Shown piece after piece: positions 1 to 23,466 of a DNA stretch of 64,000 nt. The notes under the pieces are model-generated. The model had not been told where the DNA came from. It saw only the letters and a list, made by a program, of their open reading frames with translations, and made no database searches. How positions within the stretch are numbered: position 1 is the first letter of the stretch; each line of letters opens with the position of its first letter. Origin of the DNA: Aegilops tauschii subsp. strangulata (lineage: Eukaryota; Streptophyta; Magnoliopsida; Poales; Poaceae); assembly GCF_002575655.3 (NCBI RefSeq), contig NC_053041.3, positions 378,183,054 to 378,247,053 on the forward strand, read 5' to 3'. Both the position numbers and the translations under genes were made by a program.

Positions 1-898
1 GATGATCTGGCGCTCCCTTGTCTCCAACCTCTCAAGCTCAAGGCTGCGCTCCATGGCTTCTAGTGCCATCGCCTCCTTGCGCTTTAGGATCTCTTCCTCC
101 TCGGCAGGTGTCCCCGTCATCGACGCAAGGGCGGCTTGGCGCGCCTCCACCTGCTGCTCCAAGGAGGCGCTCCAGGCTTGGAGCTCCCACGTCCGTTTCT
201 CTGCGATCTCGCGGCGGCGGTCAGCCTCCTGGGCTTCTTCCAAGGCTCGGGAGCAGGCCTCGCGCAAGGTCGCGAGGGATGCCTCCGCCTTTGCATTGTC
301 AAGCTCGCACTGGTGGCGCCCGAGGTTGATGGCCACCTTCAGTTTACGACACTCCTCCACCAGATGAAGGCCCTCGGCCTTGAGGCATGCATCTACATCC
401 ACGAGCTCTCCGCCGAGCCGGCTCATCGCGGCCATCGCCTCCTGAAAAAGCTCATGACAGACGACACTCCGTTCATGTGCTATTTTAAGCACGCTACCGA
501 CCTCGTCCTCCGCCGCGGGGGTTGCTGACGGGGTCTGAAGCGGCTCACCCCCTCTCAGCAGGAGGCTGGGGGCTGGCCCCCCGGTTGTCGGCCAGACCTC
601 GCGAGGGACCCGGATGGGCGGAAACCTGCTGCTCGAAGGAGAGCCCAGGATCGAAGCCATCCAGCCGCCTTCCACCATTAGAGGAGGAGCCCTTGGCACA
701 CTAGCCGCACCCCAAGCAAGGCCACGAAGGAGAGACGGCAAGGGCGCGGGCTCGAGGCGCCTTGCAGGCAGGCTTGCTTCTCCAGCTGACCCCGCACCAG
801 GGGCGGCGTGCAAGCTTGGGGCGCTCAAGGCTAGCGAGGGAGACAAGGCGAGAGGAGGCTGCTTCTCGGGAGACTCCACGACCTTGGCAGAAGGGACC
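1..898 (-). pseudogene. Antisense gypsy-type protein, exon 2 (Pro/Ser linker and coiled coil)
   Basis: Reading on the minus strand from an acceptor TTCAG at 903-899, the frame is open without a stop to the window edge. A split codon GA|G joins it to exon 1 across a 62 bp intron (899-960). The first ~120 residues are rich in Pro, Ala and Ser. From about position 510 down it becomes a strongly charged, heptad-like Glu/Ala/Arg/Leu sequence (for example EEEEILKRKEAMALEAMERS), typical of a long coiled coil. That two-part structure, globular N-terminus then coiled coil, fits the known architecture of this antisense protein family. The C-terminus lies outside the window. Confidence 0.6.
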
Positions 899-960
899 CT
901 GAAGAGCCACCGTCAGGAAGGGAAGCAAAACTCGAGGAACTACAAAGATAAGGTACTTAC

Positions 961-2396
961 TCGACGATGGCGAAGTACTTCCTATGTTTCAATGGCCAGA
1001 CGGTGCCACTACTACAGGTTGGAGACTCCTTCCTCTTGCGGACCGTTGCGAAGTCCACGCAAAACCGGCCCAAGCGTTGGACGTGGAGACCAGCGTGGGG
1101 CGCGACTGGATAGGCACCCAAGGAGACGACCTCAGAGGCGCCAGGCTGGGAAGAGCTATCGAGCTCCGCCTCGCGGTGACCTGCCGAGGCCTCAGGAGCT
1201 TCGACCTCAGGAGCAGCGGACTGCGTCGCCCCTTCAACTGCTGCCCCAGCGCGAGAATCACGGGTTCCCGAAGATGACGCCTCGGGAACCTCAGGCGGTA
1301 TCGACACCTTGATGCCAGCACCTCTGGCCTCCAGCGGTGCTAGCCCCCCTGCATCCACCCCCGGGGTGAGTCCGGCACTGGTGGCAGGGAGGGGGACCAT
1401 GGAGACAGGGTTCTCGCGAGGCCCTTCAAGGCCAGCAAGACGCAGCCCCCACTCGTCGAAAGGGGGCATTTGCTCCACAAATTCCTCCTTGTTCAAGTAG
1501 CGGTACAAGAGACAACTCTCCTCTGGCATGTCATCTGGCAGTGGGATGCCCGTCAGGACCTCGAGCACCATTCGCCGCGCCTCAAGGGGGAGCCCGGACT
1601 CCTGAAGTCTCATGCGGTCCTTGCTGTTGAGCAAGGCCCACATCGGTCGAGAATGGCGCTGAAGCAGAGCGACTCGGCGCCGGATGAACTCCATCACCAC
1701 CATTGGCGCAGTCACGCCAAGATCCTTCAGCCTCTTCAGCCGGAGCCAGACAAAGACAAGGCGTGAGTTAGCGAGCTTCTCGTGGCGCCAACTGGAGTTG
1801 GGAATGGCGGGTGCCGACGGAGAAGAGAGCAGGGGGCTGAGCACTCCGACATCGACAAACACCCATCGTGTCCGAAACCCGCTCGTGGACGGCGGAAGCT
1901 CGAAGTCAATCCCTGAGCCAGCCGTCACTGCCACAGCCTGGAAGCTCAGGTATCCCGAGCTCTGCCGGGGATCAATCAGGTGCAACGAGAAGAAATGGCG
2001 GAGAAGGGCCACGGAAGGAGCAATGCCCACCACGGCCTTGCAAACAAAGGCGAAGACAGCGAGAAGGGCCATGGATTGGGGATCAAGGTGCAGCTTGTGG
2101 ATCTGATAATGGGAAAGCACGGCGTTGAAGAAGGCGGAGAAGGGAGGAACCAGGCCAGCACACAGGGCGTCGATGAAGAATGGGACCTCGGTGGCTGTCC
2201 TGTCGACACGAGCTCGAGACGCCGGCCAGGCCACCGTCCCTCCCCACTCGTTGAAGCCGGTGGCGAGCGCGGGGCGCACCTTGTCCATGGCCTCCCGGTT
2301 GAGCACCAGCGACCGGCCGACAGCAGGTTCAATGGCCAGAGGTGGTTCGGTGGAGGACAGGGGCTTCTTCCCTTTCTCTGTTCAATCCGGCGCCAT
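961..2396 (-). pseudogene. Antisense 'putative gypsy-type transposon' protein, exon 1
   Basis: Long reading frame antisense to the Gypsy element, between where pol would end and the 3' LTR. The open part (2306 down to 961) encodes about 449 residues. Segments such as EVPFFIDALCAGLVPPFSAF and the tract around LLRHFFSLHLIDP resemble the plant antisense-ORF family annotated as 'putative gypsy type transposon' (Pfam PF04195, by recollection, unsearched). The frame extends upstream to an ATG at 2396 beginning MAPD, but an in-frame TGA follows at codon 5, possibly a C-to-T change of CGA. The exon ends at 961 before a canonical GTAAGT donor. Read through, it stops at once; spliced, it continues in phase into 1-898. 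The function of these proteins is unknown. With the early stop this copy is probably a pseudogene unless translation starts at a downstream ATG (2288). Confidence 0.7.
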
Positions 2397-2670
2397 GGCG
2401 ATGGGAAGGACTGAGCTCAGATCAGATTGGGAGAAGAGGCTGAGCTTCGAGGAAGCGGAAGAATTGGGGGAGTGCGCCGCAACAATGGGAGGGAAACCGT
2501 GTAGAGCACGGTGGCCGCCTAGCCAGGCAGATATCAGGGCTGCGTGGGGAAGTGGAGACGCCCACGTCCAATCAATCGCCACGCGTCGAGCAGGGCCGCA
2601 GGCTGTTGGGTCCCGCGGAGCTCCGCACTTGCCCTTTGGCTTCGCCTCGAAGCCAAGTCCGAGCGCGCCT

Positions 2671-2686
2671 TGGGCCTGGGGGCGAC
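2671..2686 (+). other. Polypurine tract of Gypsy element 1
   Basis: Purine-rich TGGGCCTGGGGGCGAC directly before TGTCGG of the 3' LTR. It matches in place and form the tract of the related element at 14660-14675 (minus strand, GGCCCGGGGGCTAC). It is the expected primer for plus-strand DNA synthesis and fixes the element's orientation. Confidence 0.75.
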
Positions 2687-3518
2687 TGTCGGCGTTCTGG
2701 GAACGGGGGTCCCCAGACTTGCCTGCCTGCGGCCCACGGCGTGGCTCTCCCAGCGGCCCCGTACGGCCCATCTTCACCAACAAGTACTCAAGACCCTCGC
2801 GAGGCGGACGACACAAGACCTCCTCAGGGGCGGCCTCACCAGGATGGCTCGCGAGGGGCTGAGAGATCAAGGCAATGGGTACCTCGCGAGGTTTCCCGTG
2901 ACGTAAGCCATGCCGATCAAGGCCAGGCGGGCGCCAGTGATCACAACATCCTCGTTCCTCTTTGGTGCTAAGGAGGCAAGCGCAGGCGAAGAGTACCGAG
3001 GCATCAGACAAAGGTTTCCATATCGGTACAATGAGACCAAGACCAGCAGGACGGCAGGACGGTGGTCACCGTGGAGCCCAAGACGGCGTCACCACCAGAG
3101 CCTTTGGCAGGCGAAGACCACCTTTAGTCAGGATAGCTTGTACTAGCTGTCCCACTTCAAACTGGCCGTTGTGGCATCCCTTCCTGCTCAATATTTGGGA
3201 AGAGGACTAGGGCCTCTATAAATAGGACTAGCCACCTCCATAGCAGGGGATCGAAACCTTCACCAGCTCACCAAACACAAGAACACCTCTCCTCAGGAGG
3301 CTGTTCTTCCCTTGTACCGTTCATCATCAGCCTCCAAGGCAATCCACCACCACCGCACTGGAGTAGGGTATTACACCATAACGGTGGCTCGAACCAGTAT
3401 AAATCTTATGTCCTTTGTGTTGTGAGCTCGTTGAGTTCAGCCCTAGAGATTGCGGTGAGGGTGAGGGCGTGGTTTGTTTTCGAACCTCGAGGGTTTTGCC
3501 GGAACCCGAAATCCGACA
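2687..3518 (+). repeat. 3' LTR of Gypsy element 1 (832 bp)
   Basis: Begins TGTCGGCG and ends ATCCGACA, short inverted termini of the TGTCGG...CCGACA kind. A TATA box (TATAAATA, 3217-3224) in plus orientation marks the promoter. The sequence is homologous over its length to the two LTRs of the minus-oriented element at 13820-22014, so the two elements belong to one family or close subfamilies. Confidence 0.85.
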
Positions 3519-11440: not shown

Positions 11441-13814
11441 TGCTGCCATCCGTTGCCTCTCCACGTACATAAGCCCTGGCCGTCCGTATATATGCGCGAG
11501 TACGCGCTCGAGACCCCGCCCGTATGTACGTACGTGGCCGTATTTTTCCCTGTGGCTGTACGTAGGTGTACATGACTTAGACGGGACTGTGTGAACTGCT
11601 ATAGTAGGTAAGTAGGTAGAAAAATTACTAGATATCATTGGACTTACTTCGCTTTGCTATCTAATAAGTTTTTCTACCCCTCTTCCCTTTTTCTTTGTAT
11701 CGACTATAAACCACTGGATTGTCTTCAATTGGATGTCGGGTGCTCTACAACGACACGTGCCGCTACTTACTCGGCCACGGTTCATACTTGCAGAGAGACC
11801 GATCGGCCAGTATGTACATACACGTTCGCGACCAAACAGACAACGCTACGTACACTTTGACCGGGTGGGTCCCAGCGGTCAGGGAGGATAAGGACGTACT
11901 TCCTTGCGTGCGGAGATATAGCTGGTCAGTCCCAGCTGTCAGGGGAAGGAATCGTTTTTATTTTACGAGTAATAAGGAGGCACTTCCTTGTGTTTGAAGA
12001 TGTAGCTGGTGGGTCCAGCTGTCAGCCTCACCGCCTAAAGTCCTCTTCCGATGGCTGTCCTTCGTTGACCACGTTGACCACGCCGCGCCGAGAGCACCAA
12101 GGCGGTGGATGACGACGAGGCCTAGGAATGGAATGACGCGGAGCCGGGGAAGACGCGGCAGTGGATGTCCACGCGGAGGGGAGTACGTGGGTTGACTTCT
12201 TCGCCTGCGGTGTGAGGTTGCCGTCGCCGGAGAATAACAGGAGGTGTGGGTGAGTATAGAGGGATGACATGGCCAGCGGTGGCAGCACAACCGGACACGG
12301 GATGCAGGAGCAGGCGGCACGACCGGCGCTGGTTTGGGCGGCTGGAGCAAGAAGACCAGAGGTTGAAGAGGCACGACGGCCGTTGGATGGACATCGTACG
12401 GTCACTGTAGCTAGAATCGTTTATATTGACTAAGTTGACAAAGACCTTAGTACGCGTCAACTTAGTAGGCCCACAGGTCAGCCTCCGAAATGGTGTGCCC
12501 TAGATGTCAGGGGGAGGAATCATATTTTGGGCGGCTGAAGCAAGAATATCCGAGATTGAAGAAGAAGCACGCATCCGTTGGATGGACATCCAACGGCCAT
12601 TGCTGCTAGAACCGCGTGTTGACTATACGTTGACACAGCCTTGCATACGCGTCCACTTAGGGTTTTTTAGGGGACGTGTCAACTTAGTGGGCCCACAAGT
12701 GTGTGGTAGAGAACATATAGCCCATTTGCGATTTGTAAGAATGTACAGCCCATTTTTGAATTCTAATGGAATTTACTACAGCCCACAGTTTGTTAAAAGT
12801 ACAGCCCATTTTCTAGTTAGGACAACGATTAATAATTTCAACCAACCGCTCAAAACAGAATTCAATAAAAATTCCCACATTTTGATGGGATCCGAAATAT
12901 TTTATGCCGAAATTTCTAGTCAAATTAAATATAATTTCAAAATAAATTTGTATTACGTAAAAACCAACGAAATATTGCGCGCGCAACAATTAATGAAATT
13001 AAAATTTTCAAAATCCAAAACTAATATTTTTTAAACTAATTACATGTTTGGTGCATTTTTTTAGTTACTGCCCAGTTTTTATAATTACATCCCATTTATT
13101 ATTTCTTAAAGCCAATTTTCTGGTTAAGCCTAATGCATCCCTCCTAGGAAAGTTTTGCAGCCCTTGGTGGCGGAGAATAACAAGTTGATCTTGCCTGGGT
13201 ATTCCTCAAAAAAAAGTATAGCTGGGGTAGCCATTTTCAGCTTGAAAAATAATAATATCTGGGCTGGGTATCTGGCCTGGGCCAGATGGGCCACAGTCTG
13301 CCCAGTTAATACCCTGCTCTCCTCTGAAAAACAACAAAAACATCGCTCAAGAAAAACTATGCAGTGCTCACACATGAAAAATACAAATACTGCTCGAGCT
13401 GCTTGATCCTAGCTGTCGGCCGCTCCTTGTGCAATTCTCTCGTTTATTGACTACATAGGTTGACAATGGTGTGGGACCCTGATGTCAGGAAACCAGGAGG
13501 AAGCAAAAAAGTTATAGTTGTATATAATAAGGAGGCACTTGCGTACGTACGGCTATGGCCCTGGTGGGTCCCCACTATCATCTTTTCCAAGTAAAGTCAT
13601 CTCCTCATTCATCATGTCCGCTGACCATGTTGACAACGCGAGACGGCATCGCCATGGCGAGCGCAACAACTCGAATGACAATGGAGAGGGCCTCACGGGC
13701 CCTATGGATGGTCTGATATAGTGCCCACTGCTCATTCAGGAAGCCAGGATCATAGGGCCACATGTCCGCGACGACATTGTCGTTCGCTTGTTCGCCGGTG
13801 CTCATTGAGGAGAC
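11441..13814. other. Non-coding remainder of CACTA-like block
   Basis: No convincing gene. Recurrent motifs are visible: GGTGGGTCC(C)AGC(T/G)GTCAG(G) or its partner at about 11870, 11925, 12010, 12470, 13455 and 13565; ATAAGGAGGCACTT at 11970 and 13530; and ACAGCCCATTT at 12718-12812 (four copies). The segments 11946-12075 and 13500-13630 look like diverged duplicates of each other. The stretch 12800-13110 is very AT-rich and empty. Confidence 0.4.
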
Positions 13815-13819
13815 GGAGG

Positions 13820-14659
13820 TTCGAACTCTGGGGTGCGCGTGAAGTTCTCCCCCTACCGATCCACGTCCTAGCTTTGCTAAGATCTCAAGGACTAACTCGA
13901 CGAACTCGCAACACAAAGAACACAAGATTTATACTGGTTCGGCCCACCGTTGTGGTGTAATACCCTACTCCAGTGTAGTGGTGGTGGATTGCCTCTTGGG
14001 CTGAGGATGAACAGTTACAAGGGGAAGAACAGCCTCCTGAGGTTGAGGTGTTCTTGTGCTCGGTGTGCGGGTGAGGATTCCCCTCTCTATGGTGGTGGCT
14101 AGTCCTATTTATAGAGGCCCTGGTCCTCTTCCCAAATATTAAGCGGGAAGGGAGCCAACAACGGCCAATTTGAAAGGGGACAGCTAGTACAGCTTATCCT
14201 AACAAAAGTAGTCTTCGCCTGCCAAAGGCTCTGGCGGTGACGCCGCCTTGGGCTCCATGGTGACCTCCGTCTCACCGTCCTGCTGTTCTTGGTCTCATTG
14301 CACTAATATGGAAACCTTTGCTTGACGCCTCGGTACTACGCGCCTGCGCTTGCCTCCTTAGGACCAAAGAGGAAACAAGGACTCTGTGCGCACTGGCGCC
14401 CGCCTAGTCTCGGTCGTCATGGCTCACGTCACAAGAACCTCGCGAGGTTTCTCTTGCCTTGATCTCTCCGCCCCACGCGAGCCAACCTGGTGAGGCCGCT
14501 CCTGAGGAGGTCTTGTGTCGCCCGCCTCGCGAGGCTTGGCCCCTCGCGAGGGTCTTGAATGCTTGTTGGTGAAGATGGGCCGTACGGGCCCACTAGCAGA
14601 GCCACACCATGGGCCGCAGGCAGGCAAGTCTGGGGACCCCCGTTCCCAGAACATCGACA
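13820..14659 (-). repeat. 3' LTR of Gypsy element 2 (840 bp, outer 34 bp absent)
   Basis: Aligns with 21175-22014 of the 5' LTR; the outermost 34 bp of the partner (21141-21174) are absent here. The inner end GACA (14656-14659) abuts the polypurine tract. The minus-strand TATA (TATAAATA) lies near 14106-14113. Confidence 0.85.
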
Positions 14660-14880
14660 GTAGCCCCCGGGCCCAAGGCGCGCTCGGGCTTGGCTTCGAG
14701 GTGAAGCCAAAGGTCAAGTGCCGAGCACCGCAGGCCCCAATAGCCTGCGGCCTTGGTCGACGCGTGGCAGTTGATTGGACGTGTGCTCGGCAACTGCCCG
14801 ACTTGACAAGTCCCTCCGACATGCAAGGGAAAACCATCATTACCTATGATCATGGGGGGCGCTGGTTGGCCTTCTCTTGC

Positions 14881-14887
14881 TATAAAT
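14881..14887 (+). promoter_or_regulatory. TATA box of the antisense B3-like gene
   Basis: TATAAAT on the plus strand, about 86 bp upstream of the ATG at 14967. A CCAAT-type box (ATTGG, 14775-14779) lies about 100 bp further upstream inside the 122 bp segment shared with Gypsy element 1. Spacing fits a plant core promoter. Confidence 0.5.
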
Positions 14888-14966
14888 GGGGAGGGCGGCA
14901 GAGCCCCCGTCACCCATCTCTTCCCATTCTGCTTGCTTCTCCTCCTATGCTCCACCGCCGATACCA

Positions 14967-15767
14967 ATGGCGCCGTCAAAGAGGTTCTCTGCCGCGGAGA
15001 AGGGGAAGGCCCCTCGCGAGGGGCCTGGCTCCCCGGCGCCCAAGCGTGGACGTGGCCGTCCCCGCAAGCACACCGCGACCCCCGCCGCGGCCCCTCGCTC
15101 CCGCGGTGGTGCCGCTGCGCGTGGAAGGGGTCGTTCTGGTCTTGGCAGCCCTGTCGATGAGAGGAGACATGCCATGGTTGCATGGCCTCCCCGGCCGCGC
15201 TTCCACTCGGCGGAGGTGCTGCCGGAGTTCGTCATGTGGTCGAAGGACCCGGCCGGCAATTGGCTTCAGCTCCCGCACTTCTTCGCCGATGAGCTGCCAG
15301 CCTCCGGTCTAGGTGGGCTCTGGCTGCAGGCGGACGGTTGCTGCAGCAAGGCTTCTTGGGTTGCGGTCGAGGTCTCCGTCGCGGGCAACATAGCTCTGGC
15401 CTGCGGTTGGCAGACGTTCCCCCGCGCACGCGGCCTGGGCAGGCAATGCACCCTCCATTTCAAGTACGACGGTGATGCGACCCTCTACGTGAGGGTGTTT
15501 GGGGAAGATGGTCGCCGCGCCGGGTGCTGCCCCGAGGTGAACGACGGCGAGGAGGTGCTCGGCCTTGGCGATGGTCGGGACGAGGAGGAGGGCGAACCCG
15601 CCCTTGGTGTCGACCGCGTCTCGTCCAGCTATGATGGCTCTTCCCCTGGTGACAGCTCCAGCAGTGGTGGCTACGACCAACCGCCATGCCGCCGCGCCCG
15701 CTTCGAAGGTGGCAGCGGGTCGACTCGTTGCCGCGCCTCCGTGAAGCGCGAGGAGGGGTCCAGCTGA
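14967..15767 (+). CDS. AT-hook and B3-like protein, antisense cargo of Gypsy element 2
   Basis: Intact 266-residue ORF, antisense to the retrotransposon, between the end of pol and the 3' LTR. Start chosen at CCAATGGCG, 86 bp after a TATA box; the frame is open a further 81 bp upstream. Residues 26-34, KRGRGRPRK, form an AT-hook core (GRP). Residues about 98-180 resemble a plant B3 DNA-binding fold: NWLQLPHFFADEL, then a W-V-A-V segment, GNIALACGWQTF, and FKYDGDATLYVRVF, which matches the family's 'GW..F...H....L.F.Y.G...F.V..F' pattern. The C-terminus is acidic, then Ser/Gly-rich, then basic. This suggests a nuclear DNA-binding protein, but family assignment is by pattern only. Every sense gene of the element is broken while this one is not, which is unexpected without selection or recent gain. 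Confidence 0.65.
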   Translation: MAPSKRFSAAEKGKAPREGPGSPAPKRGRGRPRKHTATPAAAPRSRGGAAARGRGRSGLGSPVDERRHAMVAWPPRPRFHSAEVLPEFVMWSKDPAGNWLQLPHFFADELPASGLGGLWLQADGCCSKASWVAVEVSVAGNIALACGWQTFPRARGLGRQCTLHFKYDGDATLYVRVFGEDGRRAGCCPEVNDGEEVLGLGDGRDEEEGEPALGVDRVSSSYDGSSPGDSSSSGGYDQPPCRRARFEGGSGSTRCRASVKREEGSS

Positions 15768-16401
15768 GCTCAGGACGTAGCCAAGAGCCCGTCCCCGTGA
15801 ACCACTGTAGGGGCAGACGCCGCTTTTATCTTGTTCTTCCTTTTCTTCCTGTATCAAAAAGAAACCAGTATGGGCCCCGGAGGGGCGTGTATCAAACCAT
15901 GATTCCTCAATCACTATGTTGTGCTTATCGTTTCTGTGCTGTGCCTTTGTTTTGCGTAGAGACGACTTAGCTTAGCACACTTGGGGTAGCCTCCTCTTCA
16001 CGAGGCATTGTTTCCTGGCGCCTGTCAAGGCCTTCCTTGACTCGGTGGGCGCTTAGGAACTGCAAAAAATTCATTAGGAAGCTCGTTAGGAGGCTTATCG
16101 TTCACCTAAGCCTTGACCCAGCGCTTCACATCGCGGTACCCGAGGGGCACGGATCAGGAGATATGCACCAGCTTGTGGGCTCGAACGAGGGTGCCTCATG
16201 AAAAAACAGACGGTAGGCAGAGAAAAGGAAAAACGCTCGCGAGGGCACCTAGTCTAGTCTTCAAGTCTTCTCACCAGCGCGGAGCTCAGTGCTGCCACTA
16301 AGACGTGGGAGGGAGCCGCCGAGGCCCGAGGGCGGCACTCCTGAGACTCCGGGGCGTGTACAGCCCCACTCGTTATTATGTGAGAGTGTCACAGGCGGCG
16401 A

Positions 16402-16463
16402 TCTTCACAGGCACTGGGCCTTCTTCACAGGCACTGGGCCTTCTTCACAGGCACTGGGCCTTT
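16402..16463 (-). repeat. 20-bp tandem triplication after integrase
   Basis: Three perfect or near-perfect copies of TTCACAGGCACTGGGCCTTC at a 20 bp period. It lies immediately downstream (minus strand) of the pol stop near 16470. The stretch from here to 15768 has no sense-strand gene and holds only the 3' flank of the antisense ORF. Confidence 0.85.
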
Positions 16464-16469
16464 CTTCAT

Positions 16470-17677
16470 GGGTAGAACTTCTGGATGTGCTGGATGTTCC
16501 AGGCGTTCTGGATGGGTACCCTGTCCTATGTCTCCAGGCGCGTGGCGCCAGGCCTGGAGACATGGACGACCTTGAACGGGCCCTCCCACATGGGTGAGAG
16601 CTTATGCATCCCTTCCCTGGAGAGGACCCGCCTCAGGACGAGGTCACCGGCCTCGAGCGTCCTGGAGCGGATGTTGCGGCAGTGGTATCATCGCAGCGCC
16701 TGCTGGTACCTTGCCGCCCGTAGTGCGGCTTCGCGGTGGCGTTCCTCCCCCAGCACGAGGTCCATCCCCCACGTGGCGTCCTATTGCGCTTCATCAAACG
16801 CCAAGACCCGTGCGGAGCGATGCTTGACCTTGTGAGGGAGGACCGCTTCTGCTCCGTAGACAAGGAAGAACGGGGTCTCGCCCGTTGGCTTGGTGGCGGT
16901 GGTGTGGATGGATCACAGCACGGACTGGAGGTCGTCGTACCAGCCCCTGTTGCAGGCCTCGAGCTTCTTCTTGAAGGTCCTGGTCTTGAGGCCCCTGAGG
17001 ACCTCTGCGTTAGCGCGTTCGGCCTGACCATTGCTCCTGGGGTGAGCCACCGAAGCGTACCAGATCTGCGTTCCAAGGTTAGTACAATACGTCTTGAAGA
17101 GATTACTAGTGAACTGCGAGCCGTTATTAGTGATGATGCGGTTGGGGACCCCGTAACGGCTCACGAGACCCTTAATGAACTTGACCGCGGAGCCCGCTGG
17201 GATGGTGCGGACGACTTCCACCTCCGCCCACTTGGTGAACTTGTCAATGGCGACGTAGAGGTAGTGGTAGCCCCCAGGCGCTCGAGGGAACGGGCCCAAG
17301 ATATCCAGCCCCCAGACCGCGAACGTCCATGTAAGTGGGATGGTCTGGAGGCCCTGAGCCGGCTGATGGATCTGCTTGGCGTGGAACTGGCAGGCTTCAC
17401 AGGACTTCACCAGCTCGGTTGCGTCGTTGAGCGCCGTGGGCCAGTAGAATCCGCTGCGGAATGCATTGCCGACGAGGGTACGTGATGACGAGTGGTGCCC
17501 GCAATCCCCAGCGTGTATGTCGGATAGCAGCTCCTTCCCCTGATCCTTGGAGATGCAACGCAGTGAAACATCATTTGGTCGCTTCCTGTACAACTCACCG
17601 TCCCGAATGCAGTATGCCGTGGCTTGCCGGGCCACGCGCTGCGCGTCCTCCTCCTTCTCCGGCAGCGCCCCTTGCAT
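16470..17677 (-). pseudogene. Gypsy integrase remnant
   Basis: Minus strand. The N-terminal zinc-binding HHCC pattern is visible (GDCGHHSS... SCEACQ), then the catalytic core: first Asp in WGLDILGPFP, second position in RIITNNGSQF where most relatives have TDNGSQF, so the catalytic Asp is Asn here, and the QAERAN region for Glu. The C-terminal chromodomain-free tail runs to about 16470 but is cut by stops near 16905, 16785, 16690 and 16560. The enzyme is therefore inactive. The loss of the second Asp is a G-to-A change, typical of decay at methylated cytosines. Confidence 0.85.
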
Positions 17678-17704
17678 CAGGTATTCCTTGAATTCCTTGG
17701 TGCA

Positions 17705-18290
17705 TCATCCCTCCTGGGGCTCGAGCGCAAAGAGTAGGCGCGCTCCCAAAGTCGGGCCACAGGCTGGGGCTCCTGCGACAGGCGGCTGCGGGGGCTCCTC
17801 CCGAGGCTGAGCTGTCCTTGAGAGTGGTGGTGTGGCCGATGGCTTGAAGAGCCGCTCCTTGAAGACGCCAGGCTCTTGGGGCTGCCGCTTGGATGCCCTC
17901 CTGGCGATGTCGTTAGCTTCCTTGTTGGTGCCGCGGGGCACGTGCTGCAACTCCAGGCCCAGGAACTGCTTCTCCATCTTGCGCACCTCCGTGAGGTACG
18001 CCTCCATGTGCTCATCCTTTGGCTCGTATACCTTGTTGGAGAAGTTGACGAGGAGCTGCGAGTCGCCCCTAATGGTGAGGTGATTCACCCCCAGACCGGC
18101 CGCAGCTTTCAGGCCAGCTATGAGGCCTTCGTATTCTGCGATGTTGTTGGGGACCTTCCTGCCTGCTGAAAGCAGAGCTGCACGGCGTGGTAGAGCTTGT
18201 CTTGGGTGGGCGAGATAAGTACTACTTCAGCCTCCGTGCCCTGGTGCGCGAAGGCGCCATCGAAATACATGACTCATCCATCTGGCGCCT
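17705..18290 (-). pseudogene. Gypsy RNase H remnant
   Basis: Minus-strand reading begins near 18280 with VMYFDGAFAHQGTEAEVVLI, the first catalytic Asp region of plant Gypsy RNase H. It continues after stops near 18140 with HLTIRGDSQLLVNFSNKVYE (GDSxLV motif, second Asp) and VPRGTNKEANDIARRAS (the closing N..AD.LA motif). Stops separate the two halves. The Pro-rich segment from 17850 is a linker to the integrase. Confidence 0.8.
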
Positions 18291-18375
18291 CACTTCCCGG
18301 CGAGGTGGACTGGTCCTCGCCTACTTCAAGCGTCGGGGCATCGATCCATTCTGCCACGAAATCAGCCAGTGTGGC

Positions 18376-19925
18376 TCACTTGATGACCCTGGTAGTGCTG
18401 AACTCCAACTGGAACGCCTGCAACTCGATGTTCCACTCAGCGAACCTTCCAGCAGAGTTGGGGCTCCTGAGCACTCTCTCCAATGGGTAGGCTGAGATGA
18501 CCTTGATGGGGTGGCACTGGAAGTAGTGCCGCAACTTGCGCGAGGCCACCAAGAGCGCTAGCAAGAGCTTCTGAGGCATGGGATACCATGCCCTTGCGTC
18601 CCGCAACACCGTGCTGACGAAATACACCGGGTGCTCGATGAGAGCTGGCGCGTCGGTGAGGCTCGTGTCCCGCGGGAGCCGGGGTGTCTCCTGAGGTAGT
18701 GGAGTCCCAGACGCTTGATCGCTTGTTGGGGTCTCAGCGGCGTCGTCCTGCCGAGCTTGGTCCTCTATGGATGCTGCTACAGTTCTTGTGGCGCCTTCAT
18801 GATCTTGCGTCGTCTTGGCTGGCGGCGTAGCTTGGCGTGACGCGCCCTTGGCTTGGCGCTCTTCCCGAACCGCCACCAGAGCCGCGCTGGCAGAGTACGG
18901 AGTGGCGGCAAGATAAAGCACTAGGGGCTCGAGGGGCCGTGGCGCCACCATCACCGGAGGGCTGGTCAGGTATCTCTTGAGGTCTTGAAAAGCTCCGTCG
19001 GCCTCCGAGGTCCACTCGAACTGGCCCTTCTTCTTCATCAGCTTGAAGAAGGGCAGGGCGCGCTCCCCCAGCTTGGAGATGAAGCGCCCCAACGCAGTCA
19101 CCCGACCAGCCAGCTTCTGCATTTCCTTGAGGGTCTGTGGTGGGCTCATGTCTTCAATGGCCTTGATCTTTTCTGGGTTCGCCTCAATCCCTCTGTGGGA
19201 CACGAGGAAACCCAGCAACTTACCGGAAGGGACACCGAACACGCACTTCTCCGGGTTAGGCCGCAAGTTCACCTGGCGCAGGCTCGCGAAAGTCTCCCCC
19301 AAATCTTGGATCAAGGTTCTGGCCTCCCGAGACTTCACCACAATGTCGTCGACGTAGGCCTCCGCGTTTCTCCCGAGCTGCTGCCCTAGTGCGATGTGCA
19401 TCAACCGCTGAAAGGTTGCGCCCGCGTCACGCAGTCTGAAGGCATGCAAGTGTAGCAGTACACCCCACACGGGGTCAGGAAGGCTGTCTTCTCTACATCT
19501 TCTACCGCCATCTTGATCTGGTGATACCCCGAGAACGCATCCAGGAAGCACAGCAGGTCGCACTCGGCGGTGGATTCGACGATCTGGTCGATGCGTGGAA
19601 GTGGGAACGGATCTTGGGGATAGGCCTTGTTGAGGTTGGTGAAGTCGACGCACATTCGCTCCTTCCGGCCTTTCTTCGGCACAACGACGGGGTTTGCTAG
19701 CCATCCGGGGTACCGAACCTCGCGAATGGCACCCGCCGCCTCTAACTTGCGGGTTTCTTGGACGATGAAGGCCTGCTTCTCCGTGGACTGCCGTCTCGCC
19801 CGCTGCTTCACAGGGCGTAAATTGGGGCAGACCCTCAAGTGATGCTGAATCACCTCTCTCTGGATCCCCACCAGCTGCTTGGGTTCCCATGCGAATATCT
19901 CCTTGTTCGCGCGCAAGAACTTCAC
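18376..19925 (-). pseudogene. Gypsy reverse transcriptase remnant with frameshift
   Basis: Minus strand. The N-terminal fingers and palm are in one frame (19925 to about 19435: AGAIREVRYPGWLANPVVVP, MCVDFTNLNKAYP, DAFSGYHQIKM). After a frameshift near 19435 the catalytic block AYVDDIVVKS and the thumb (KLLGFLVSHRGIEANPEKI) continue in the frame that runs to 18376. The YVDD box is intact. From 18990 the RNase H connection begins. Upstream sequence of the longer frame is an out-of-phase shadow of the first half. One frameshift separates the two halves. Confidence 0.85.
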
Positions 19926-19960
19926 CAGTGCTTTCTCTTGGCTTGGGTCGAGGTCGGCAC

Positions 19961-21070
19961 CTATGGTAAAGGTGGCTCCTCAGGACCCGTCCTCATCGAC
20001 CGGCACCTGCTTGGTTTCCGCCTTGTCTTAGGTGAAAACTGCTTCTTCTTGGTTGGTGCAGCTCCCTTGGCCTCGGAGGTGCCCGCACCGGCGGGCTGTG
20101 CCGCCGCGGCGGTCTTGAGGGCAAGCTTGAGCGCCGCCAGGGCCTCCTTGGCGTCCCCCTTGATGGTGAGGACGCCCTTGCTTCCAGGCATCTTCATGAG
20201 GTTGTAGGCCGGATGGATTGCTGCCATGAACTGGGCCAGAGCTGGGTATCCGAGGATGGCGTTGTACGGGAGGCCGATGCGGGCGATGTCGAAGTCGACC
20301 AGCTCAGTGCGGTAGTTGTGGCGCGTGCCAGAGGTGACAGGGAGGCGAATCTGCCCCAGGGAGCGGGCGGTGCCGCCGCCAACTCCTGAGAAAGGCTTGC
20401 TGAGGCTGAGCCGCTCGAGCGGTACGTGAAGGAGGCTGAAGGCCTCCACGGAGAGCACGTTGAGGCCGGCGCCGCCGTTGATGAGGGTCTTGGTAACGGC
20501 CACGTTGAAAATAGTGGGCGTGCAAAGCATCAGGAGGATACCCGACCCGTCGGTGGTGACGGGGTGGTATTCCGAGTCAAAGGTGAGGTTGGCCTCGGGC
20601 GCAGCCCAGCCCGGCAGAACCCCCGAGCGCTTGGAAGCGGCGCCGATTTGGCGAAGGAATGGCTTGATGTGGCGATCTAAAGGCGGTGCTTGAGAGCCAC
20701 CTAGTAGGGCCGCAACCGCGTGGTGCGCCGGTGCCGCGTAGCGCGCAGTGAAGAGGCTGTGCAGGTCCTCCCAAGATTCCACCATGGATCCGGGGAGGTT
20801 GAGTAGCCAGGCGCGTGGCACGCCGGTGAGGGCCATGGGAAACCAGTTGGCCATGACCTTGTCGTCACCCCCAGCCTCGAGGACGGCCTCCTCATATGCC
20901 AGCAGGAAGCTGACGGGTCCGCCGTGCCGTCGTAGCGCGGCGGCATCTCCGGCTTGAACTTGCGCGGCCACTACACCTGCCGCAAGGCGGGGGCCAGGGC
21001 TCGGAGCCCCCTGGCCCCGTCGTCGGTGTTTGCCGTCAGAGCCGGGAGCGAGACGCCTGCCATGAGGGTG
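19961..21070 (-). pseudogene. Gypsy gag-protease remnant with internal deletion
   Basis: The gag part (about 20950-20590) contains DDKVMANWFPMALTGVPRAW and ESWEDLHSLFTARYA, the standard plant Gypsy gag signature. A frameshift near 20920 precedes it. It then jumps within one frame to the aspartic protease: FNVAVTKTLINGGAGLNVLS, where the family normally has the catalytic IDGG; here Asp is Asn. The zinc knuckle expected between gag and protease is missing, so an internal deletion fused the two. GLPYNAILGYPALAQFMAAI is the protease C-terminal flap and helix. Confidence 0.8.
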
Positions 21071-21120
21071 GAGCGCGGTGGTGGCGGAGCACAGATCGAC
21101 GGGAGGGAAGCTACGGTGCA

Positions 21121-21138
21121 CCCCTACCTGGCACGCCA
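21121..21138 (-). other. Primer-binding site of Gypsy element 2
   Basis: Minus strand TGGCGTGCCAGGTAGGGG, two bases inside the 5' LTR. The TGG start and the position identify it as a primer-binding site. The primer tRNA is not assigned from sequence alone. Confidence 0.65.
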
Positions 21139-21140
21139 AA

Positions 21141-22014
21141 TGTCGGATCTCGGGTTCCGGCAAAACCCTTAAGGTTCGGACTCTAGGGTGCACGCGAAGT
21201 TCTCCCCCTACCGATCCACTTCCTAGCTTTGCTAAGATCTCAAGGACTAACTCGATGAACTCGCAACACAAAGAACACAAGATTTATACTGGTTCGGGCC
21301 ACCGTTGTGGTGTAATACCCTACTCCAGTGTGGTGGTGGTGGATTGCCTCTTGGGCTGAGGATGAATAGTTACAAGGGGAAGAACAACCTCCTGAGGTTG
21401 AGGTGTTCTTGTGCTCGGTGTGCGGGTGAGGATTCCCCTCTCTATGGTGGTGGCTAGTCCTATTTATAGAGGCCCTGGTCCTCTTCCCAAATATTGAGCG
21501 GGAAGGGAGCCAACAACGACCAATTTGAAAGGGGACAGCTAGTACAACTTATCCTGACAAAAGTAGTCTTCGCCTGCCAAAGGCTCTGGCGGTGACGCCA
21601 CCTTGGGCTCCATGGTGACCTCCGTCTCGCCATCCTGCTGGTCTTGGTCTCGTTGCACTGATATGGAAACCTTTGCTTGACGCCTCGGTACTCCGCGCCT
21701 GCGCTTGCCTCCTTAGCACCAAAGAGGAAACAAGGACTCTGTGCGTGCTGGCGCCCGCCTGGTCTCGGTCGTCATGGCTCACGTCACGAGAACCTCGCGA
21801 GGTTTGCCTTGCCTTGATCTCTCCGCCCCTCATGAGCCAACCTGGTGAGGCCGCTCCTGAGGAGGTCTTGTGTCGCCCGCCTCACGAGGCTTGGCCCCTC
21901 ATGAGGGTCTTGAATGCTTGTTGGTGAAGATGGGCCGTACGGGCCCACTCGCAGAGCCACGCCATGGGCCGCAGGCAGGCATGTCTGGGGACCCCCTTTC
22001 CCAGAACGCCGATA
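21141..22014 (-). repeat. 5' LTR of Gypsy element 2 (874 bp)
   Basis: Plus-strand ends TGTCGGATCTCGG (21141) and GCCGATA (22014; expected GACA, one base changed). The promoter TATA is TATTTATA at 21461-21468 on the plus strand, read in reverse. The flanking GGAGG at 22015-22019 repeats at 13815-13819. Confidence 0.9.
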
Positions 22015-22019
22015 GGAGG

Positions 22020-22156
22020 TTGCAGCACAGGTCCTCCTGCGCTGGTAGCTCTTCCAGCATTAGGGCGTCGAAGTGCGGCCGCACCTGCTCTATGGTGAAC
22101 ACGGCTTGAACCGGCTTGGACAGTGGCGCCGGCTCCTCGTCGGAAGCTACGTCCAT
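22020..22156 (-). pseudogene. Hypothetical low-copy ORF split by Gypsy element 2
   Basis: Minus-strand ATG at 22156 begins MDVASDEEPAPLS and reads through FTIEQVRPHFDALMLEELPA to the element boundary. If the element and one GGAGG copy are removed, the frame continues without a stop into 13814 and downward for about 20 codons (ending near 13750). An alternative frame in 13605-13790 is also open (MSTGEQANDNVVAD...). No known domain is recognised. It may be a real uncharacterised gene, a transposon-derived ORF or chance; the join across the insertion is what makes it worth listing. Confidence 0.35.
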
Positions 22157-22464
22157 CGTCCGATTGTCGTCACTCAGCTCGGCGAGCTCACTGGTGAGCC
22201 AGCATGTCCGGCTGGTGGACCGACCCGCTGCCAAGCACGAGTCTGACCGCCCTGGCCCACCCAGACCGCCTCCCTCGCCCGCGCGCTCTTTCCGCCCGAA
22301 ACGGTCAGCGCCGCCCGCCCCGCTTCCTGGTGCAGGCGATTGCTCCGTGTTCAAACGACACAAGTGCCATCCGTCCATCCGTCTGCCGTCCACATTAATG
22401 ATACGCGGTTGCCGAGGCGGCTAATCCGGCGTCACCCATCCGTCCCTCAGCCACCCACCATTGC

Positions 22465-22471
22465 TATATAA
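22465..22471 (+). promoter_or_regulatory. TATA box of hypothetical gene at 22545
   Basis: TATATAA, 74-80 bp before an ATG in good context (CACCATGGCT). Upstream GC-rich sequence (22251-22315) is related to 53800-53864. Confidence 0.5.
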
Positions 22472-22544
22472 ACTACTGTGTCGGCCATAGCCGCAATCAT
22501 CCGCCTCTATTCCCTTTCTCCTGTCCACACCACTACTGCTCACC

Positions 22545-23242
22545 ATGGCTTCCTCACGCTCCAGCGCTCTTCGGGACGGGCGGATGACGGATCACAAGGA
22601 GATGCCAGCCATTGCTGTCGACTGGCTGGCCAGTAGGCAGCCGAAGGACGACGACGTCCCAATGGAGAACGTGGTAGTTGATGATCCGGCGCCAACCCCC
22701 TACTCCGCGCCATCCTCGCCGGTGCATTGCACCATGACCATCGATGAGGCCCGTGCCCAATACATGGACACGGTGAGGCAGAAGCGTGAGGAGCAGTTCT
22801 GGGAGGCACAGGCTGACACCGTCTACAACCACCATCTCCTCCAGGAGCACCTGCAGGTGGAGGAGCAGATCGCCGCGGAGCGGGCGGAGCAGGAGGCACT
22901 GCTTGACTCATACCGCTCCGCCCGCGAGAGCCGCCTCGAGTGCTAGCGGTACCGCATGCGGGTGGCGGAGGTTGAGGACGCCTATAAAGAGGGCGATGAA
23001 GCGGGCAAGGCGCTGTTTGGTGAGACTGATGATCTGGCAGAGGACAATGCGGCTCCGACGAGTCCCCGCTCCGCTAGCATCAACGAGGCCCTGCTCCGCC
23101 GAGGCCCCACCGCGCCAACAACTAGGCAGAAGACACCGCCGGCTCCGCTGATGCCCCACCCCGCTGGCGCCGAGGTGAAGAATTTCGGCGGCTTCGGCAA
23201 GGCCCTGCTCCGCCGAGGCCCCGCCGCTCCAACAACGAGTTA
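22545..23242 (+). pseudogene. Hypothetical charged, coiled-coil protein gene, broken
   Basis: ATG at 22545 in a strong context with a TATA box upstream. The first 133 codons encode a Ser/Pro N-terminus and then a charged helical region (ARAQYMDTVRQKREEQFWEA, EEQIAAERAEQEALLDSY) that looks like a coiled coil. An in-frame TAG at 22944 interrupts it. The same frame stays open from 22947 through RVAEVEDAYKEGDEAGKALF to 23240 and enters GC-rich repeats. I do not recognise the family. The tail of the gene is further cut by the Angela-like element at 23467 and resumes at 48379. It was probably a real gene of the low-copy island and is now a pseudogene. Confidence 0.5.
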
Positions 23243-23466
23243 GAGGACATCGCCGGCAACGCCGAGGCCCCGCCCGCCGACACCGAGGCAGAGGACCTCG
23301 CCGGCTTTGGTGAGGGCCTTCTCCGCCGTGGCCCCACCCCGCCAACAATGAGGCAGACGACATCGCCGGCTAAGCGGAGGCCCCATCCTGCTGGCAACGA
23401 GGGGGGGGGGGATTTCCCCCGCTCCGCCGAGGCGCCATCCCGCCGGCAACGAGACAGAGGACATCG
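23080..23466 (+). repeat. GC-rich degenerate minisatellite, interrupted by Angela insertion
   Basis: Repeated unit around CTCCGCCGAGGCCCC(A/G)CCC and GACATCGCCGG with irregular spacing of about 40-110 bp. The array continues at 48379-48440 on the other side of the 24.9 kb Copia insertion. The target-site duplication CATCG lies inside a repeat unit. Confidence 0.65.

Follow-up and report, generated by a model that had tools for sequence, protein, structure and literature searches.

Antisense accessory open reading frames (ORFs) of the aORF-3R or eORF-3'R type are known from Tat-lineage Gypsy retrotransposons, with maize Grande gene23, rice RIRE2 and Silene Retand as described cases (PMC7264820, PMC6317226; for these and all papers below, statements refer to the accessible portions of the texts). 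Transcription from its own promoter and a nuclear location have been reported for Grande gene23 (PMC7264820), and a nuclear or DNA-binding role has been proposed for antisense aORF proteins (PMC7264820, PMC6317226). Apart from the SMC domain of PvRetro13 and the Transposase_28 (TRP28) domain of Retand, the accessible portion of PMC7264820 describes no clear similarity of aORF-3R proteins to other proteins. In Retand, the TRP28 antisense ORF lies between pol and the 3' long terminal repeat (LTR), its product is predicted to bind DNA, and pol and 3' LTR are 2.9–6.6 kb apart (PMC11963269). Here we analyze a 64,000-nucleotide stretch of the Aegilops tauschii subsp. strangulata genome (NC_053041.3, positions 378,183,054–378,247,053, forward strand; hereafter the window), in which a Ty3/gypsy element carries an antisense ORF for an AT-hook/B3 protein. 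This ORF is probably the aORF-3R of a high-copy Tat-lineage family, encoding a predicted DNA-binding protein that serves the element.

A screen that kept domains present in at least five consensuses per species mentions B3, in a single sentence, for the Gypsy consensuses of Ae. tauschii and of no other species (PMC9289625). That report, whose accessible portion does not mention an AT-hook, the orientation, a test for selection, an origin or a mechanism, very probably concerns the same phenomenon as the antisense ORF described here. In our literature search, conducted mostly at the level of listings, this was the sole mention of B3 in LTR elements, and no earlier account was found of an AT-hook plus B3 antisense ORF, of selection on it, of a second family or of a REM-like grouping. 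Antisense aORFs and the presence of B3 in Ae. tauschii Gypsy elements are thus already known; what appears to be new is the AT-hook, the antisense architecture, the test for selection, the REM-like grouping of the B3 domain and an LTR-enriched candidate target, the palindrome CTCGCGAG.

An antisense ORF between integrase and the 3' LTR

The element is complete, spanning 8.2 kb on the minus strand (13820–22014; boundaries read from the sequence and from LTR comparison), and is of Tat type. It is flanked by a 5-bp target-site duplication, GGAGG, at 13815–13819 and 22015–22019. In minus-strand order its parts are as follows, the two domains of the antisense protein being given below their ORF.

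21175–22014, minus strand: 5' LTR, about 840 bp, from LTR comparison and flanks
19961–21280, minus strand: weak gag-like ORF (Pfam Retrotrans_gag, E 0.0069, below cut-off), its listed 5' end entering the LTR
18376–19925, minus strand: reverse transcriptase (RT) and RNase H (RH), split over two frames
17705–18088, minus strand: second RNase H (RVT_3 type, aRH; Pfam 5.3e-09), between RH and integrase (INT)
16913–17677, minus strand: integrase (Pfam rve, 4.2e-10)
14967–15767, plus strand: antisense accessory ORF, 266 aa, comprising AT-hook, linker, B3 domain and acidic/Ser-rich tail
15042–15068, plus strand: AT-hook KRGRGRPRK, residues 26–34
15204–15521, plus strand: B3 domain, residues 80–185
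13820–14659, minus strand: 3' LTR, about 840 bp

An additional RNase H placed between RNase H and integrase marks the Ogre/Retand branch of the Tat lineage (PMC6317226); since an RVT_3-type aRH sits in just this position, the element is placed there. As in the known aORF-3R systems, the ORF occupies the slot between pol and 3' LTR, is antisense to gag–pol and recurs in the same arrangement across many family copies. It differs from them in its B3 domain and AT-hook, and it is likened here to gene23 and RIRE2 by arrangement. The antisense slot is likewise shared with Retand, and the window even contains a TRP28 element whose LTR is related; however, the domain here is another one, and the distance from the integrase ORF to the LTR is at most ~2.25 kb, short of the 2.9–6.6 kb range, which leaves the element outside Retand as defined. 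TRP28 was absent from those ORFs of the B3 element that were scanned, a subset of all frames.

The initial annotation had described an uninterrupted 266-codon ORF lying antisense inside a dead Gypsy copy with broken RT and integrase, and each of these statements holds. The ORF is stop-free throughout, and an in-frame upstream ATG at 14886 would extend it to 293 aa. In this copy pol is damaged: RT is split over two frames, at least one out-of-frame indel separates the window's 5' RT segment from each of 15 RT copies (15/15), and the integrase translation reads ITNNGSQF, with N at what we take to be the position of the catalytic D. The LTR pair differs by a Kimura two-parameter (K2P) distance of 0.0506, dating the insertion to ~1.95 My ago at an assumed rate of 1.3e-8 per site per year. 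No Rfam match was found in 13000–23000. Just past the element, three direct copies of 85 nt lie at 23077–23388 with a spacing of 113–114 bp, 79–81% alike to the first.

Copies across the genome and selection on the reading frame

Genome searches scored the best candidates only, and all copy counts are lower bounds. With the ORF as DNA query, the best 40 of 4770 first-look candidates were scored; with the protein, the best 144 of 22789, and with a distant relative as query, the best 144 of 21093. The antisense arrangement recurs: of 40 RT places (that of the window among them), at least 16 are accompanied by the ORF at a distance of 2.9–3.3 kb on the opposite strand, and among the matches listed no same-strand ORF lies within 5 kb of any of the 40. 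At a further seven the ORF lies 11–31 kb away, as nested insertions would give, and the remaining 17 have no ORF among the 114 ORF places typed. A second high-copy family (L148, L150; best 150 of 12516 candidates scored) carries a homologous RG-rich plus B3 ORF.

Substitution patterns among these copies show that purifying selection acts on the reading frame across the element family. In the DNA-chosen set, which comprises all 39 other places of the 40-place DNA search, the ratio of nonsynonymous to synonymous change (dN/dS) is 0.48 in the ORF frame, as compared with 0.96 and 1.00 in frames +1 and +2, and none of 300 CpG-aware shuffles had as few nonsynonymous changes as observed. The family value is not near 1, in line with the retained ORF that the initial annotation had proposed. 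The protein-chosen set (29 of 30 copies, with L031 dropped for frameshifts) gives 0.33, a figure biased low by the choice of copies. Over longer divergence, a deep set was formed from 20 of the 144 places of the distant-relative search plus the window, with synonymous differences of 0.43–0.49. Its dN/dS over all pairs is 0.28 (residues 1–22, 0.19; AT-hook, 0.18; B3, 0.28; tail, 0.27; linker, 0.37), and that of the window against the others is 0.24 (AT-hook, 0.21; B3, 0.23; tail, 0.25; linker, 0.29). The strongest constraint in this set falls on the first 38 residues, AT-hook included.

These figures bear on two further explanations. B3 is a host transcription-factor domain and retrotransposon capture is known (PMC7264820), which would suit a host gene captured recently by one subfamily and carried along as a functionless passenger; a dN/dS of 0.24–0.28 over synonymous differences of 0.43–0.49, together with the sharing of the ORF by at least two diverged high-copy families, makes this very improbable. 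Alternatively, the element might gain mainly from antisense RNA that pairs with genomic RNA and tunes copy number via small RNAs, the protein being secondary. The antisense position fits, and such a role has been raised for antisense aORFs (PMC7264820), yet the constraint follows codons, is strongest in the first 38 residues and is lacking in frames +1 and +2, and we consider this explanation rather unlikely.

For the window copy itself, an open ORF is ordinary. A divergence of ~2.5% corresponds to ~20 substitutions in 798 bp, of which ~1.6% would be nonsense, giving ~0.3 stops expected since insertion, and 13 of the 39 DNA-chosen sister copies are open as well (without stop or out-of-frame indel). 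The initial annotation had raised the possibility that the host co-opted this particular copy as a transcription factor gene, for which its open ORF, its TATA box and the plant-type DNA-binding protein it encodes could be cited. Against this stand the thousands of first-look candidates in the family (4770; 22789), the sister copies that are equally open, the ~0.3 expected stops and an age of only ~2 My at the assumed rate. Co-option is exceedingly improbable, and the idea of a special status for this copy is not upheld.

The AT-hook/B3 protein and the origin of its B3 domain

The AT-hook given in the initial annotation is present, with a GRP core in a basic context. This core is found in 32 of 39 DNA-chosen copies and in 15 of 21 deep-set sequences, window included. 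The B3-like domain, a weak call on the window protein alone, is confirmed through relatives and the predicted fold. The homologous ORFs of the second family, L150 and L148, pass the gathering score of PF02362 (39.5 and 47.4 bits, respectively), and 5 of 120 listed relatives carry a precomputed PF02362 annotation. The window protein is predicted to fold as E-E-H-E-E-E-H-E-E, i.e., a seven-strand open barrel with two short helices, which is the B3 fold; the barrel blocks reach ~70–86 in predicted local distance difference test (pLDDT) score. The first 27 structural matches (VIA rows) are either B3 domains from plants or restriction-enzyme domains for DNA recognition, among which we take 1yel and some of the restriction enzymes to be B3. 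The best matches are plant REM/VRN1-type B3 proteins (At1g16640, VRN1), which, unlike the protein here, are host proteins at ordinary gene loci.

An unrooted tree was built from the B3 domains of 13 aORFs together with 40 PF02362 places, out of 150 scored in the genome. The aORF domains form one group (99/96), which pairs with L142 and L145 (100/98), and a 99/98 group adds L136 and L139; we presume these neighbors to be REM-like. L136 looks single-copy (next best 55%), L139 is repeated and L145 is a repeat too (150 scored of 12516 candidates). L142 and L145 had at first looked gene-like and were considered as the immediate host-gene donor; L145 was discarded once shown to be a repeat. Near B3 matches also occur around 590.8 Mb on C3 and 427–429 Mb on C4, among further B3 places. 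The simplest reading of these groupings is that the B3 domain was acquired from a REM-like plant B3 gene, long before this insertion. As the tree is unrooted, the transfer may also have run from transposon to host; of the captured host transcription factor suggested by the initial annotation, the grouping with host-type B3 domains stands.

Further B3 ORFs were seen in repeats and gene models. At L149 (1188–2123), a B3 ORF with an open frame of 335 aa belongs to a repeat, and 27 of 150 rows of the corresponding search tie at 107.5 bits on all seven chromosomes, as recent amplification would give. The nr model P0134, 'B3 domain-containing protein Os03g0212300-like [Aegilops tauschii subsp. strangulata]', shows 66% identity over 45% of the second family's ORF.

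Putative promoter, proposed role and a candidate target

Two putative promoter features precede the antisense ORF.

14881–14887, plus strand: TATA box, TATAAAT, 86 bp before the ATG
14774–14778, minus strand: inverted CCAAT box (ATTGG on the plus strand), 193 bp upstream

The TATA box, as located by the initial annotation, is unchanged in 26 of the 28 copies chosen by protein; control 7-mers containing no more than one G or C are conserved at 0.52 on average, and 8% of them reach the value of TATAAAT. The CCAAT box annotated about 190 bp upstream is there at 193 bp, though inverted, and is kept in 26 of 28 copies, a figure without motif control; a direct CCAAT is at 14737. All 29 of 29 copies retain the stop codon and 28 of 29 the start codon, both favored by the protein-based choice of copies. 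An RY motif (CATGCA, presumably a target of ABI3-type B3 factors) at 14820 is kept in 25 of 28 copies; it is equaled by 27% of control 6-mers and was set aside as evidence.

In the proposed mechanism, the antisense ORF would be transcribed from its own promoter, and the AT-hook/B3 protein would enter the nucleus and bind DNA through its basic AT-hook region and B3 domain. There it may act in trans for the element family, either controlling LTR transcription or binding chromatin on behalf of pre-integration DNA. The window copy would be one decaying family member whose ORF has yet to take a stop.

Several results weigh against a conserved DNA-binding accessory protein. At the level of the copies, the ORF is present in sister elements, as the initial annotation's reading implies, while in 26 of the 39 DNA-chosen ones it is broken by a stop or an out-of-frame indel. 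There is no deficit of nonsense changes (28 versus 19.2 expected, sd 4.2, the count including codons with a stop already in the first copy), and the dN/dS of 0.48 is laxer than that of RT segments in 15 copies (0.24 and 0.42). The antisense frame that shares third positions gives 0.50, with the other two at 0.92 and 1.02, so the coding strand rests on B3 homology and not on dN/dS; that frame is stop-free in 11 of 39 copies versus 19 of 39 for the ORF frame. The deep set is stop-free by choice, and the copies behind the promoter comparison were chosen by protein. At the level of the domains, the AT-hook scores 13.9 bits against the Pfam AT_hook cut-off of 17.4, and the window protein alone scores 15.3 bits against Pfam B3 (PF02362; E 0.019, cut-off 30.1). 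Six of seven genome copies match this profile at E ≤ 1, the best at 21.9 bits and none above the cut-off. The mean pLDDT of the whole model is 63.8, B3 constraint over all pairs equals the protein average (0.28 versus 0.28), and the window B3 part is slightly acidic (9 K+R, 11 D+E), next to a basic N-terminus (20 versus 4). Given the acidic barrel and the average constraint, strong sequence-specific binding should not be taken for granted.

These domain features would also suit a protein whose B3 domain has lost DNA binding and now acts as a protein-interaction module, with the AT-hook alone tethering it to AT-rich DNA. Besides the acidic barrel, such a loss would accord with the confinement of the Pfam B3 alignment to profile positions 59–99 of 101 and with the AT-hook being more constrained than B3 over all pairs (0.18 versus 0.28). 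In the comparison of the window with the others, however, B3 (0.23) is close to the AT-hook (0.21), the nonsynonymous difference over all deep-set pairs is lower in B3 (0.13) than in the linker (0.22) or tail (0.19), and the second family keeps its B3 domain though the L150 copy, the one read, lacks the GRP AT-hook core. We regard loss of binding by B3 as possible but doubtful, and an accessory protein binding DNA through both domains as the likelier account.

A candidate target comes from a palindrome shared with a neighboring element.

957–2306, minus strand: TRP28 (Transposase_28) ORF of a second element (PF04195, 2.5e-18)
14439, 14526 and 14543 (in the 3' LTR), 15013, 16236, 21794, 598, 1413, 2796, 2848 and 2883: CTCGCGAG palindromes

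The second element is partly contained in the window (1–3450), with a related LTR at ~2686–3450 that is ~85% alike and in opposite orientation. Its TRP28 ORF is antisense as judged by the orientation of this LTR, the element's pol lying outside the window. All 11 palindromes (0.54 expected) fall inside the B3 element or the stretch 1–3450, several of them within the LTRs; these parts have a G+C of 0.61 versus 0.43, and the whole-window expectation overstates the excess. The palindrome occurs 134 times in 29 B3-family copies (3.2 expected), where it is the third commonest 8-mer, and 26 times in seven TRP28-family copies (1.1 expected), counts that are not independent as related copies share sites by descent. 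Each of 25 3' LTRs contains one to four sites. Although they contain CpGs, the five sites compared have a mean conservation of 0.68 versus 0.42 for other CGCG 8-mers, with 18% of controls reaching 0.67. Three loci of other B3-carrying repeats lack CTCGCGAG, and the literature search on it gave nothing concerning this element among the papers listed. It is a candidate cis site of the AT-hook/B3 protein, a lead and nothing more. Were the protein to recognize the LTR through it, the B3 and TRP28 families would be tied into one co-regulated set, in the manner of retroviral accessory factors controlling proviruses; we hold this idea to be speculative and unlikely.

In the TRP28 element, the slot is occupied by another accessory ORF, an arrangement reminiscent of the autonomous/non-autonomous Fatima pair. 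Fatima is a Triticeae Gypsy family present in Ae. tauschii, whose autonomous member TREP3189 encodes a polyprotein and a second ORF, PTREP234, and whose LTRs are common to a differently coded non-autonomous partner (PMC3129301). Likened by description, the B3-carrying family may be Fatima.

Few antisense accessory ORFs of plant Gypsy elements had a recognizable domain, and the combination of B3 and AT-hook gives an experimental handle on their function. Gene counts for B3 in Triticeae, and models named 'B3 domain-containing protein', may include transposon ORFs. The ORF further indicates that very large transposon families harbor plant transcription-factor domains, which evolve within them.
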